From an uncultured Fretibacterium sp. (GTDB taxonomy: Bacteria > Synergistota > Synergistia > Synergistales > Aminobacteriaceae): a stretch of 64,000 nt of DNA. The notes beneath the pieces were generated by a model. It was not told the origin of the DNA. It saw only the letters and a list, made by a program, of their open reading frames with translations, and searched no databases. The position numbers and the translations under genes are program-made. The stretch lies in the NCBI GenBank assembly GCA_946183145.1, contig CAMGZM010000005.1, positions 1-64,000 of the forward strand. The letters run 5' to 3'. Shown here piece after piece: positions 9,456 to 14,010 of this stretch (the first letter of the stretch is position 1; every line of letters starts with the position of its first letter).

Positions 9456-9494
9456 GTGAAAATTCCTTCCTGTGAAAAGTTTTTGACGGCTAAA

Positions 9495-9522
9495 ATTTTA
9501 TGACAGCAAAAAGATTCGTCAA
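9495..9522 (-). promoter_or_regulatory. Promoter of feoAB
   Basis: Read on the minus strand: TTGACG (9522-9517), 16-bp spacer, TAAAAT (9500-9495), about 40 bp before the start codon. No Fur box was convincing by eye. Confidence 0.6.
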
Positions 9523-9630: not shown

Positions 9631-9656
9631 TTGCATTTTTTTTTTTTCGGTATACT
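9631..9656 (+). promoter_or_regulatory. Candidate promoter with a T12 spacer tract
   Basis: TTGCAT (9631-9636) and TATACT (9651-9656) are only 14 bp apart, and 9636-9647 is an unbroken run of 12 T. Adding about three T would give the optimal 17-bp spacing, so slippage in the tract could switch the downstream small ORF and maturase on and off. This is inferred from spacing alone. Confidence 0.45.
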
Positions 9657-9705
9657 ACAGCCATCTAAAATAAACGCCTCAGGGCAGAAAGGACGAAACA
9701 CTATC

Positions 9706-9810
9706 ATGAAGTTATTATTTGACGTTTCCAACCGCAAGAGCGCAGCAAGAGTCATCAGGTCGTATAACAGTTGCAGAGGATGGGCAAAAATTTCCCTGTT
9801 CGTCCTGTAG
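9706..9810 (+). CDS. Small ORF, candidate RiPP precursor peptide
   Basis: A 34-residue ORF 98 bp before a radical SAM/SPASM gene and on the same strand. It is basic and starts MKLLFDV; residues 9-19 are Arg/Lys/Ala-rich and the tail holds Y20, C23, W26, K28 and F32 in a SCRGWAKISLF context. An AGAAAGGA lies 12 nt upstream of the ATG, a slightly long spacing. The short leader-like front, the few modifiable residues near the end and the adjacent maturase fit a ribosomally made, post-translationally modified peptide. A Trp-x-Lys or Cys-based crosslink is a guess. It is not recognised as any known precursor family. Confidence 0.5.
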   Translation: MKLLFDVSNRKSAARVIRSYNSCRGWAKISLFVL

Positions 9811-9844
9811 AAATCGGCAGCATAAAGCGTAATCAGTTAATCAC

Positions 9845-9882
9845 GGAGCAGTATAGGCGGTAAGAGTCTGTGCTGCTCTTTT
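9845..9882 (+). terminator. Attenuator-like hairpin between small ORF and maturase
   Basis: GAGCAG (9846-9851) pairs with CTGCTC (9873-9878), followed by four T. Placed between a likely precursor and its enzyme, a leaky stop would give more precursor than maturase mRNA, as in many RiPP operons. The short T-run suggests partial termination. Confidence 0.45.
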
Positions 9883-9908
9883 CGTATATTCAGAAGGGAG
9901 TGTGAATA

Positions 9909-11189
9909 ATGAACGTGCTACTTTACCCGCCTTATTTGCAGTGGGAAGTAATATCAGACTGCAATCACAAGTGCATTCACTGCTACAACTATTGGAGAGC
10001 GGATAATCTCGATGTCGTGAGGCATTCGGATTTTGACGCAATCACCGAGAAGATCATAGCCCGAAAGCCCGTATACATGGCCGTAACAGGAGGAGAGCCG
10101 CTGCTGGTCTTTGACGAGATAAAGCCCTGCATAGAGAAAATCATCAACGCCGGAACAAGAGTCTCGGTCTCATCAAACGGGACTCTAATCACGGAGGAAA
10201 TTGCAGAATTTTACGCCCGAAACAATATCGACACGGTGATTTCTTTTCCGTCAATAAATCCTGAGATATGCGATTCAGTCTGCGGGTCATCGGGAGTCGT
10301 CAGCAAGGTGAAAAAAAGCATTGCGATTCTCAAACGCCATAACGTGAAAGCCACAATCAATATCGTTCTCACAAAATTGAATCTGCCCTCATTGTGGGAG
10401 ACTCTGAAGGCCGTTAAGGAATGGGGACTCACAGCGCGAATCGGAATCGCACAGCGTCCAATTAATGCGTCAGATGAATATATGCGCTACGAGTTAAACA
10501 GGGAGGATTTCCGGCACATCGTAAGAGAATGTATCAGGGCAAAACATGAGCTTATGCTTGACGTAGATTTGTCAGTCTGCGTGCCTGACTGCGCGTTTGA
10601 CTCGGAAGAAGAATATATAGCGGTCGAAAAGGGAGAATGCTACGCCGGAACTATAGCATACTCAATCGGCACAGACGGAAGCGTGAAGGCTTGCCAGTGC
10701 GATATAAAGACTTACGGGAATATTCTGCGCGATGATTTCGGGGAAATATATTCGCGAATGTCCGAATGGCGGAACGGAGGAACGATTCCCCGCGAGTGCG
10801 AGTCATGCGGGCGTGTCGATATTTGCCGTGGCGGTTGCAGGGTCGAGGCGTTTGCAAGAGGGAATGACAGAAGGACTCTTCCTGAGTTCGCTAATCTTGA
10901 CAACCTCCCTGTGAATTACAGAAGGACGGAAAAAATCGTAAACTTCACTGACGATACAACATTCACAGTTTCAAACAATGTAAAATTTTTGAAGGACGCA
11001 GAATGTTACAGAGTATCTTCGGGAATACTTGCGGTACATCTCACGAATGATTTTGCAAAATGGCTGATGGATAATCTGTCATTCACATTCTCGGAGCTTC
11101 TCAGCGCAACGGGAGCTGACAAAGAAGAGCTGACATTGATTCTAAACATGCTCGCTAAAAATAATATCCTTATCATTCAAGAGAACTGA
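9909..11189 (+). CDS. Radical SAM/SPASM peptide maturase with C-terminal PqqD-like domain
   Basis: 426 residues. The radical SAM Cys triad C18-x3-C22-x2-C25 (CNHKCIHC) binds the SAM-cleaving [4Fe-4S] cluster; the GGEPLL motif follows near residue 60. The SPASM region carries C244, C262, C264, then C297-x2-C300-x5-C306-x3-C310, ligands for auxiliary clusters. Residues from about 375 (LTNDFAKWLMDNLSF, then two helices ending in NNILII) look like a PqqD/RRE winged-helix domain, which binds a precursor leader. This layout is typical of enzymes that form C-C or C-S crosslinks in peptides. ATG 9909 follows GGGAG. The small ORF upstream is the obvious substrate candidate; no exporter or peptidase is adjacent. 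Confidence 0.88.
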   Translation: MNVLLYPPYLQWEVISDCNHKCIHCYNYWRADNLDVVRHSDFDAITEKIIARKPVYMAVTGGEPLLVFDEIKPCIEKIINAGTRVSVSSNGTLITEEIAEFYARNNIDTVISFPSINPEICDSVCGSSGVVSKVKKSIAILKRHNVKATINIVLTKLNLPSLWETLKAVKEWGLTARIGIAQRPINASDEYMRYELNREDFRHIVRECIRAKHELMLDVDLSVCVPDCAFDSEEEYIAVEKGECYAGTIAYSIGTDGSVKACQCDIKTYGNILRDDFGEIYSRMSEWRNGGTIPRECESCGRVDICRGGCRVEAFARGNDRRTLPEFANLDNLPVNYRRTEKIVNFTDDTTFTVSNNVKFLKDAECYRVSSGILAVHLTNDFAKWLMDNLSFTFSELLSATGADKEELTLILNMLAKNNILIIQEN

Positions 11190-11262: not shown

Positions 11263-13794
11263 CTAACGTTTCTTGAGGAATATTGCGAGAAGTACTAATG
11301 ACGAAAGCGCAATACCTGATTCACATCCGCTGCTTGAGCTGCCTCCGATTGATATTCCCGCCTGAGTCACGGTAATGCTGAATGATTTTTCCGCGCTCTG
11401 TGAACCTGATACAGCCCTTACGGTGAATGTGTATGTGCCTGCCGTTGTGGGAATGCCGCTGATGACTCCTGTTGACTGGTTGAGAGTGAGTCCCGCGGGC
11501 AAATTCCCGGAAATCACAGACCATGTTACGCCCGACATATTCGCCGAAAGAGTCGCGCTGTAAGATTGTCCCGTTCTGCCTGAATTGAGACTCGCTGTCG
11601 TAATCGTGAGCGTTGTAACGGGAGGTGTAACAGTATCGTTGATTGTGATCGTGAATTGCTTTTCATCGCTCGCTGTGCTGTATGTCGCTCTTACGGTGAA
11701 TGTGTATGTTCCTGCTGTTGTGGGAGTGCCTGTAATCGCGCCTGTTGATGAATTGAGAGTGAGTCCCGCAGGAAGTGTCCCGCTAATCACGCTCCAGTTT
11801 GCGCCCGCTATGCTTGCTGAGAGAGTCGCGGAGTATGACGTTCCCACAGTCCCGGCATTAAGGCTCGCTGTAGTGATTGTGATTGTGGGAGTCGTGCTTA
11901 CGGTTAATGTGAGCTGTTTTTCGGCTGACTGTGAGTCCTTCACTGCCCTAACGGTGAATGTTGATGTGCCTGCGGCTGTTGGTGTCCCCGTGATTGCTCC
12001 TGTTGAGGCGTTGAGGGTGAGTCCTGTTGGGAGTGAACCTGAAATCACAGACCATGTTGCGCCCGTGAGATTTGCCGCGAGAGTTGCTGTGTACGGGGCG
12101 TTGAGGGTTGCGGAGGGAAGGGACGTTGTTGTGATTTCGAGGGCTTCAGCGGTGTAGAAGTGCCAGATGTAAATAGGCTCTCTTGAGTCTTCATATGATT
12201 TCAGTCTCACTTGAACGTTGTAAATCTGCTCCATCGGTATAGGCTCGCTGAATGTGAATGTTCCGCTGTGAGTGTCATGCACCCAGTTGCCCCGGAAAAG
12301 CCTGAACGTCTTTCCTGTTTCAGCGTCCCGCGCCTCAATATAGAACCTGAAATCAGTCCTGTATGAGGGAGTTAAAGCCGCTGAGGTGTCATTTGACGCA
12401 ACAAGCCTGTAATTTAACGCCGTGAGTTTTCCGTCTGAGCTTACTGCTTCAACATACGGAACAATCCCCGCAAGCTGTTCTGCTGTAGACTTGAAATTAG
12501 GCAGAATCTCGCTTCCGTCCATGCTCAAATCAGCCGGGAATGTCCATGATATATTTCTCCCGTTAAGCCCGGTCTCTGCTCCGCCCGCGAATGCTACATC
12601 CCTTCCGCTGTCGTCTATAGGCCCATATTCCGCCCATGTCTTTCCGATGTATGACCTGTTTGTTCTGTTAGTATTCATTCTCAGGCCGAACGTCATATCC
12701 CTTCCTGACGCTATGTTGTCAAGCACTGCTTTTGATGATACTTCGTTTGTCTCGTCATCCGAAATAACCGTATATCCTCCGCCGGGTATAGTGATCGTTC
12801 CCTCGTCCGTGAAATATTTTGCCTCCGCGATAATATTCTCGGCTTCAATGTACGTATCGACTTGAGCAAACTTTGCGCCCCTGTAGTAGGATTTGCCGTT
12901 GATGAAACGCGCCTGTGTGTCGTGAGGCCGCCAGAGGTAAATATTCGGTGTCAGCTTGTTGTCGAAGAAGTACCAGTTATAAGCCTTGCTGTTGTAATCG
13001 CCGATTATCCCATCGGTGAACCAAATCTCAGTCGCCCATATGTTTGACTCCTCGACAGGCTCATCAAATGATACAGTGCCTTCTACAGTGTCGCCGGGGT
13101 CAAAAGCATACCATCCGCCGGTCTTGGCTTCCTCTCTGGTATATGTGAGAAAGTTCCAGTTTGTTCCCCATATGTTGAAGAATACGTTTGTGTAATTTTC
13201 AGCAGGGAGCGCGGTTTCTGTGTCAGAGCTTACGACTAACCTATATTTCAGCCCCGTTACTTTTGTGCCGTCGCGGACATACTCAATGTAGGGTACATAC
13301 TCATTCAGCTGCTCCTGAGTCGTGCGGAAAGTTCCGAGATTCACAGAGCCGTCAAACGAAGTCATCGCCGGGAAATGGCACGAGACTTCCACGCCGTTCA
13401 AGCCCGTCTCATTCTCAGGAATGAGATACACTACATCGCCGTTATTGTCCTGCATCTCGAAAATGACTGAACCGTCACGCACATTGGTAACCTCTGTAAA
13501 CGGGAATGTCATTGTGTCGCCTGACACTTTCTGCATTTCGCGCCCGTTCCAGAATGAATATCTCCCTCCCGAAATTGTGAGGCTTCCTGAGACTTTCGCA
13601 ATCTCCTCCGTTACAGGAACTTCCGAATCAATAAGCCGAATCGCGAACCTGAAAAATCTTGCGTTGGAATAATCCGATTTCCCGTCCGATATGTCAGCAA
13701 TCGAAGCAGAACTACCGAATAAATTCCATGTCGCCCACGCGCCCGAACACCATAACACTACCAACAATAAACACGCTAAAACTTTTTTGACCAT
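11263..13794 (-). CDS. Surface protein with putative-Ig repeats and Synergist-CTERM signal
   Basis: 843 residues from ATG 13794, which follows AAAGGAG. A signal peptide (MVKKVLACLLLVVLWCSGAWA) is followed by about 500 residues without recognised domain, holding two duplicated segments, each with a Trp/Tyr-rich beta-type pattern. Three putative-Ig (He_PIG-like) repeats of about 80 residues follow, each with SGxLPxGLTLNxSTGxIxGxPTxAGTxTFTVRA. The end is GGSSSSGCESGIALSSLVLLAIFLKKR, abridged: an S-G-C motif, hydrophobic stretch and basic tail, as in the Synergist-CTERM sorting signal. It is likely processed and anchored at the cell surface. Its role (adhesion?) is inferred only. Confidence 0.85.
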   Translation of the reverse strand: MVKKVLACLLLVVLWCSGAWATWNLFGSSASIADISDGKSDYSNARFFRFAIRLIDSEVPVTEEIAKVSGSLTISGGRYSFWNGREMQKVSGDTMTFPFTEVTNVRDGSVIFEMQDNNGDVVYLIPENETGLNGVEVSCHFPAMTSFDGSVNLGTFRTTQEQLNEYVPYIEYVRDGTKVTGLKYRLVVSSDTETALPAENYTNVFFNIWGTNWNFLTYTREEAKTGGWYAFDPGDTVEGTVSFDEPVEESNIWATEIWFTDGIIGDYNSKAYNWYFFDNKLTPNIYLWRPHDTQARFINGKSYYRGAKFAQVDTYIEAENIIAEAKYFTDEGTITIPGGGYTVISDDETNEVSSKAVLDNIASGRDMTFGLRMNTNRTNRSYIGKTWAEYGPIDDSGRDVAFAGGAETGLNGRNISWTFPADLSMDGSEILPNFKSTAEQLAGIVPYVEAVSSDGKLTALNYRLVASNDTSAALTPSYRTDFRFYIEARDAETGKTFRLFRGNWVHDTHSGTFTFSEPIPMEQIYNVQVRLKSYEDSREPIYIWHFYTAEALEITTTSLPSATLNAPYTATLAANLTGATWSVISGSLPTGLTLNASTGAITGTPTAAGTSTFTVRAVKDSQSAEKQLTLTVSTTPTITITTASLNAGTVGTSYSATLSASIAGANWSVISGTLPAGLTLNSSTGAITGTPTTAGTYTFTVRATYSTASDEKQFTITINDTVTPPVTTLTITTASLNSGRTGQSYSATLSANMSGVTWSVISGNLPAGLTLNQSTGVISGIPTTAGTYTFTVRAVSGSQSAEKSFSITVTQAGISIGGSSSSGCESGIALSSLVLLAIFLKKR

Positions 13795-13910
13795 GAATAT
13801 ACGTCTCCTTTCAGACATAAAAAATCGCCCTCACATTCAGGAAAAATTTTCCCAAACATAAGAGCGTTGGTCTCCGTATTCTTTCTTTCAGCAATCAGGG
13901 CATAGTTATA
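13795..13910 (-). other. 5' leader of the surface-protein gene
   Basis: Between the 7-bp repeats and the start codon the minus-strand leader holds GCCCT (near 13900) and AGGGC (near 13829) that can close a large stem, followed by a run of six T, and a small palindrome GGAAAA/TTTTCC. It could be an attenuator, but the stem is only 5 bp. No known riboswitch class is recognised. Confidence 0.25.
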
Positions 13911-13971
13911 GCTTGTGGCTTGTGGCTTGTGGCTTGTGGCTTGTGGCTTGTGGCTTGTGGCTTGTGGCTTG
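13911..13971. repeat. 7-bp tandem repeat (GCTTGTG x8.7)
   Basis: Eight exact copies of GCTTGTG plus GCTTG. On the minus strand this is (CACAAGC)n and begins right after the -10 box of the promoter at 13972-14010, so it lies at the transcription start and in the leader. Compare the similar array at 57729-57779. Confidence 0.95.
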
Positions 13972-14010
13972 ATTATAGCCGCCGAATCGCATTGTGTCTA
14001 CGTCCTTTCT
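13972..14010 (-). promoter_or_regulatory. AGAAAGGACG-promoter module of the surface-protein gene
   Basis: On the minus strand: AGAAAGGACG (14010-14001), directly joined to TAGACA (14000-13995, -35), 17-bp spacer, TATAAT (13977-13972). The same arrangement occurs at 57691-57728. The 7-bp repeats start next to the -10 box. Confidence 0.7.

Follow-up and report, generated by a model that had tools for sequence, protein, structure and literature searches.

A conserved peptide-maturase pair in two phyla

In the window, the whole 64,000-nucleotide stretch analyzed here, which comes from a gut-type Synergistota genome, a gene encoding a 34-residue peptide (9706..9810, + strand) is followed by one encoding a 426-residue radical SAM/SPASM maturase with a C-terminal RRE (9909..11189, +), and homologous peptides adjoin both of the closest related maturases. 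Within a known class of modified peptides, the locus appears to be a variant that has not been described. We tentatively interpret it, with slightly less than even confidence, as a minimal RiPP locus in which the peptide is the substrate and the maturase forms a Trp26-Lys28 three-residue cyclophane. The pairing was observed directly, and we infer the chemistry and the biological role.

A scan of 84,980 species genomes returned 12 loci. The two closest maturases were those of L002 (Synergistales, red deer; 74% identity), where the peptide encoded directly upstream is MKLLFNVFDSGNNTFGKSPADVSQDSLVSYSSCRGWSRIPLFRTFSSCRGWSRIPNYALSY, and L001 (Clostridia, rabbit gut; 56% identity), where it is MKKLICNVFDDNDFEDRPRETVSMSSCRGWSRIRFNVVKMSSCRGWCKIALYAAKF. 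All three members of this group, which spans two phyla, thus have the core peptide, with similar leaders, encoded upstream of the maturase, a pairing beyond chance, and the three maturases were monophyletic (support 100/100). The sequence-only reading had named a 34-codon ORF with C23, W26 and K28 as the substrate; ORF and residues are all present (MKLLFDVSNRKSAARVIRSYNSCRGWAKISLFVL), and the pairing, whose loss among maturase homologs would have counted against that proposal, was kept in both close relatives. Substrate status is supported by the two-phylum pairing, repeated cores under purifying selection, the conserved leader, and the RRE fold of the enzyme.

The maturase was carried by only two of 188 Synergistota genomes, that of the window and the L002-type genome, and small peptides with the core motif were likewise confined to these two; elsewhere among the 188, the core DNA pattern gave scattered matches in unrelated frames. 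Two of the closest species, whose FeoAB are 94 to 95% identical, lack the locus; their homology to the window ends near 9500, beyond which they carry different genes. Given this occurrence and the absence from close species, the locus is sporadic and was probably moved horizontally, although its base composition resembles that of its surroundings. No further members of the SCRGW clade were found in approximately 1,070 genome slots (order, family, and class samples around the Clostridia relative, some genomes being counted more than once). Plasmids and phages contained no close relative, and viral contigs yielded one weak 25% match at most.

The flank upstream of feoAB (9456-9500) is variable, since the gene adjoining feoAB differs from one close species to another. 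The adjoining feoAB had prompted us to consider iron regulation, a candidate that was dropped: L001 and L002 have no feoAB beside the locus in the stretch examined, and close relatives carry other genes beside feoAB. No transporter, peptidase, or immunity genes were found beside the window locus. Downstream, 11263-13818 (-) encodes a surface-type protein of 851 residues in which Ig-like stretches recur and whose C-terminal SGCESGIALSSLVLLAIFLKKR tail resembles a sorting signal; a similar tail is apparently encoded beside feoAB in a congener. At 13906-14000 lies a short tandem repeat of TGGCTTGTGGCT units, encoding SHKPQAT on the - strand.

Leader, core, and expression signals

The peptide begins with MKLLFDV (9706..9726, +), a proposed RRE-binding strand with counterparts in L002 (MKLLFNV), L001 (MKKLICNV), L003 and L004 (FFVNV), and L006 (FFVNP). 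Its core, NSCRGWAKI (residues 21-29; 9766..9792, +), is one of five copies across three peptides, being present twice each in the L001 and L002 peptides. All five follow [SN]SCRGW[ASC][KR]I: C, R, G, W, and I are invariant, while the residue after W is free (A, S, or C) and is followed by K or R. The two L002 copies differ by eight synonymous codons and one non-synonymous codon, and their protein sequence is therefore under purifying selection. All three codon differences between the L001 copies are non-synonymous, so the duplication there looks more recent than in L002. Pfam and NCBIfam scans gave no useful matches for the precursors.

A promoter-like element, TTGCA-T(n)-GTATACT (9632..9657, +), aligned with L002 but was not listed by a generic promoter scan; the ribosome-binding site of the peptide gene, AGAAAGGA (9688..9695, +), is conserved in L002. 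Between the two genes, the previously noted hairpin with four T was found at 9845..9878 (+), followed by TTTT. It has 14 pairs and a folding energy of -22.6 kcal/mol (z -5.2; none of 200 shuffles was equally stable), and L002 has an equivalent in the same place with a partly conserved loop (z -3.5). In L001, only 12 bases without a hairpin separate the genes, so the hairpin is no general part of the locus, and it is a plausible attenuator, as proposed, in the two Synergistota loci only. There it most likely limits read-through, probably terminating most transcripts past the peptide and thereby raising the peptide-to-enzyme ratio.

A maturase with a SPASM-like region and a C-terminal RRE

The maturase matched the Radical_SAM domain (PF04055, E 3.5e-18), and its cluster motif, C18-x3-C22-x2-C25, is invariant in the 12 homologs, as are seven cysteines of the SPASM region (228, 244, 262, 297, 300, 306, and 310). 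The earlier description of a C-x3-C-x2-C motif with seven SPASM cysteines stands, except that these are not the textbook seven-Cys set: the usual last SPASM cysteine, after C310, is missing in all 12 homologs. Pfam SPASM (PF13186) scored 19.3 bits, just under its cut-off of 21.5. An AlphaFold2 model (pLDDT 85) showed a radical SAM barrel and a SPASM-like part, and the catalytic part was most alike to SuiB, anSME, SkfB, and TigE, which are SPASM or twitch modifiers of peptides or proteins.

The C-terminus (residues 338-426; 10920..11186, +) had been described as PqqD-like. PqqD/RRE sequence profiles gave no match there, but modelled alone the region adopted an RRE fold (pLDDT 90) whose top structural matches were mostly RREs: that of TigE (Z 8.8 over 78 residues, 2.8 A), TbiB1 (8.2), PbtF (8.2), and PqqD (8.0), then MccB and NisB. 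Some non-RRE proteins, such as GdmN and ribosomal oxygenases, were also among the matches. In radical SAM RiPP enzymes the RRE is generally N-terminal, unlike that of the window maturase, and C-terminal RREs have been described for proteusin epimerases (PMC8326336).

Distant relatives pair with CxC-rich peptides

Maturases at 24 to 35% identity occurred in Clostridia, Saccharibacteria, and other Patescibacteria. At eight of the nine loci (L003, L004, and L006-L011) they adjoined short CxC-rich peptides, the exception being L005, which has a different kind of gene neighborhood; additional members from order and family searches showed a similar pattern. The possibility that another peptide is always paired with the maturase thus holds only for relatives at approximately 35% identity or less, and even there the leaders are similar, with starts such as FFVNV, FFVNP, YGYVSLL, and GFVGLM resembling LLFDV of the window and LLFNV of L002. 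In the window clade, by contrast, the peptide gene is directly upstream and the core holds one Cys along with Trp and Lys/Arg. Since the distant maturases pair with CxC-rich peptides of similar leader, the window clade appears to have switched substrates within a little-known family of maturases with C-terminal RREs.

The CxC-rich peptides are encoded at L003 6311-6475, L004 1765-1884, L007 3941-4099, and L011 4437-4568, and at approximately L006 6316-6430, L008 6309-6435, L009 6315-6445, and L010 6260-6460. They have an (F/Y)(F/Y)V(N/S)-like leader and lie beside radical SAM/SPASM enzymes whose RRE is C-terminal; together, these peptides and maturases of Clostridia and Patescibacteria apparently form an undescribed RiPP family. 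Genes for HExxH zincin-type peptidases, some of which match Peptidase_MA_2 with weak to moderate scores, lie beside several of the distant maturases (L003 6681-7202 (-), L004 1928-2647 (-), L007 4188-4877, L010 6559-7227 (-), L011 4642-5382, and L012 4191-4904 (-)) and are candidate leader peptidases. At L012 4992-5165 the maturase-like gene ends after 57 codons, while the peptidase gene beside it looks intact; this is apparently a broken copy.

Comparison with known maturases

Family models scored the window maturase far below their cut-offs: mycofactocin MftC 84.6 bits (cut-off 265), PapB 63.0 (340), and DynA and WgkB 44.7 each, DynA (cut-off 450) serving as a proxy for a DarE-type enzyme. 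The locus shares with daropeptides (DarA/DarE) a radical SAM/SPASM enzyme and a W-x-K or W-x-R core, whose Trp and Lys/Arg are joined in daropeptides (PMC9055067). It differs in having a C-terminal RRE, an invariant Cys, and no adjoining transporter genes; the core lacks the W-N-W part, offering only W-x-K/R in place of W-x-W-x-K/R, with Arg two residues before Trp. Triceptides (XncB, OscB, and YhhB) likewise have repeated motifs of an aromatic residue, a free residue, and then a C-beta-linked residue, and this aromatic-x-x motif, as W-[ASC]-[KR], was found in five of five cores. The YhhB model, however, was absent from the 25 top-scoring models of the window enzyme and scored 43.5 bits on L003, against a cut-off of 445. 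Ranthipeptide maturases (PapB and CteB) also combine radical SAM/SPASM and RRE domains, and the distant relatives share their Cys-rich peptides, whereas the window has its RRE at the C-terminus and one Cys per core. The mycofactocin and PQQ systems (MftC/MftB and PqqE/PqqD) provided the best profile score and a PqqD-like fold; MftB and PqqD, however, are separate proteins, whereas this fold is a fused domain in the window maturase, the substrate is unlike MftA or PqqA, and cofactor-pathway genes are not nearby.

Proposed chemistry and its alternatives

In the mechanism that we propose, the leader strand MKLLFDV would dock on the C-terminal RRE, which would feed the core SCRGWAKI into the radical SAM/SPASM active site. 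A 5'-deoxyadenosyl radical would abstract the beta-hydrogen of Lys28 (Arg in relatives), and the resulting carbon radical would couple to the Trp26 indole, giving a W-x-K/R cyclophane with a loss of 2 Da per core copy. The invariant Cys23 could undergo a second modification or form a disulphide, and the leader would then be cut off by a peptidase encoded elsewhere. The five cores, from three loci, share an i/i+2 pattern: invariant W, a free residue, K/R, then I. DarE crosslinks W-S-K and W-S-R cores, Arg in place of Lys keeping the darobactin ring (PMC9055067), and XncB links Trp C6 to the C-beta of Arg or Asn at i+2 (PMC11002830). Darobactin and triceptides are crosslinked across this same W-[ASC]-[KR] arrangement, so a Trp26-Lys28 cyclophane is the most likely chemistry, with a Cys thioether as its main rival. 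Four points disfavor the cyclophane: such a ring does not require the invariant Cys; the CxC-rich substrates of distant maturases lack W-x-K/R, which suggests that Cys chemistry was the ancestral reaction; profile scores do not place the maturase nearest to enzymes that form cyclophanes; and no more than three loci, with five core copies, are known.

A serious, though less likely, alternative is that the same enzyme instead makes a Cys23 thioether of the sactipeptide or ranthipeptide type, with Trp, Arg, and Lys acting as recognition residues only. Cys is invariant in five of five cores, CxC-rich peptides accompany the distant members of the family, and the best model for the L003 enzyme is the PapB ranthipeptide maturase (85 bits), yet W and K/R are conserved to the same degree as Cys, each core has one Cys with no constant acceptor at the spacing known for SCIFF or PapB, and all family-model scores fall far under their cut-offs. 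Absence of the last SPASM cysteine may leave an open site on an auxiliary cluster, a feature linked with sacti- and ranthipeptide synthases (PMC8326336).

Less probable again is another outcome of the same pairing, such as a Cys-Trp link, a fused C23-W26-K28 bicycle, epimerization, or a different bond. None of C, R, G, W, and I varies among the cores, C-x-W stretches end two distant precursors (CNWG in L003 and CNW in L006) and CDW occurs in L010, and C-terminal RREs are known in proteusin epimerases; none of this is direct support, however, and the window enzyme has cysteines of the SPASM type, which sets it apart from the proteusin epimerases reviewed in PMC8326336. A specific form of this reading, which we think improbable, has one enzyme using Cys23, Trp26, and Lys/Arg28 together to build a fused bicycle, e.g., a Cys-Trp link plus the Trp-Lys cyclophane; such an enzyme would have evolved from the C-terminal-RRE maturases of CxC-rich peptides in Patescibacteria and Clostridia. 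To our knowledge, no RiPP has a fused Cys-Trp-Lys/Arg bicyclic scaffold. Finally, with a strong hairpin between it and the enzyme gene, the small ORF could encode a regulatory attenuation leader peptide and no substrate, but L001 keeps the peptide without the hairpin, L001 and L002 each carry the motif twice, conservation is seen in the amino acids and not in the codons, and the enzyme has an RRE fold, making this highly implausible.

Implications

Radical SAM/SPASM RiPPs are a known class, and what sets this locus apart is its precursor family and the position of its RRE; the precursors match no NCBIfam or Pfam family, and a full-text search of open-license papers returned no description of the motif, of Patescibacteria precursors, or of CXC ranthipeptides. 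The locus defines a new precursor motif in a small two-gene system ready for testing. It also points to a substrate switch in one maturase family, with CxC-rich peptides in Patescibacteria and Clostridia on one side and, in Synergistota and a single genome of Clostridia, a Trp/Lys-Arg core on the other. The leader strand is similar across this apparent switch, so the family lends itself to asking how core chemistry can change while a maturase still recognizes its leader. If the Trp-Lys ring is indeed formed, a daropeptide-like ring would be made by an unrelated subfamily.
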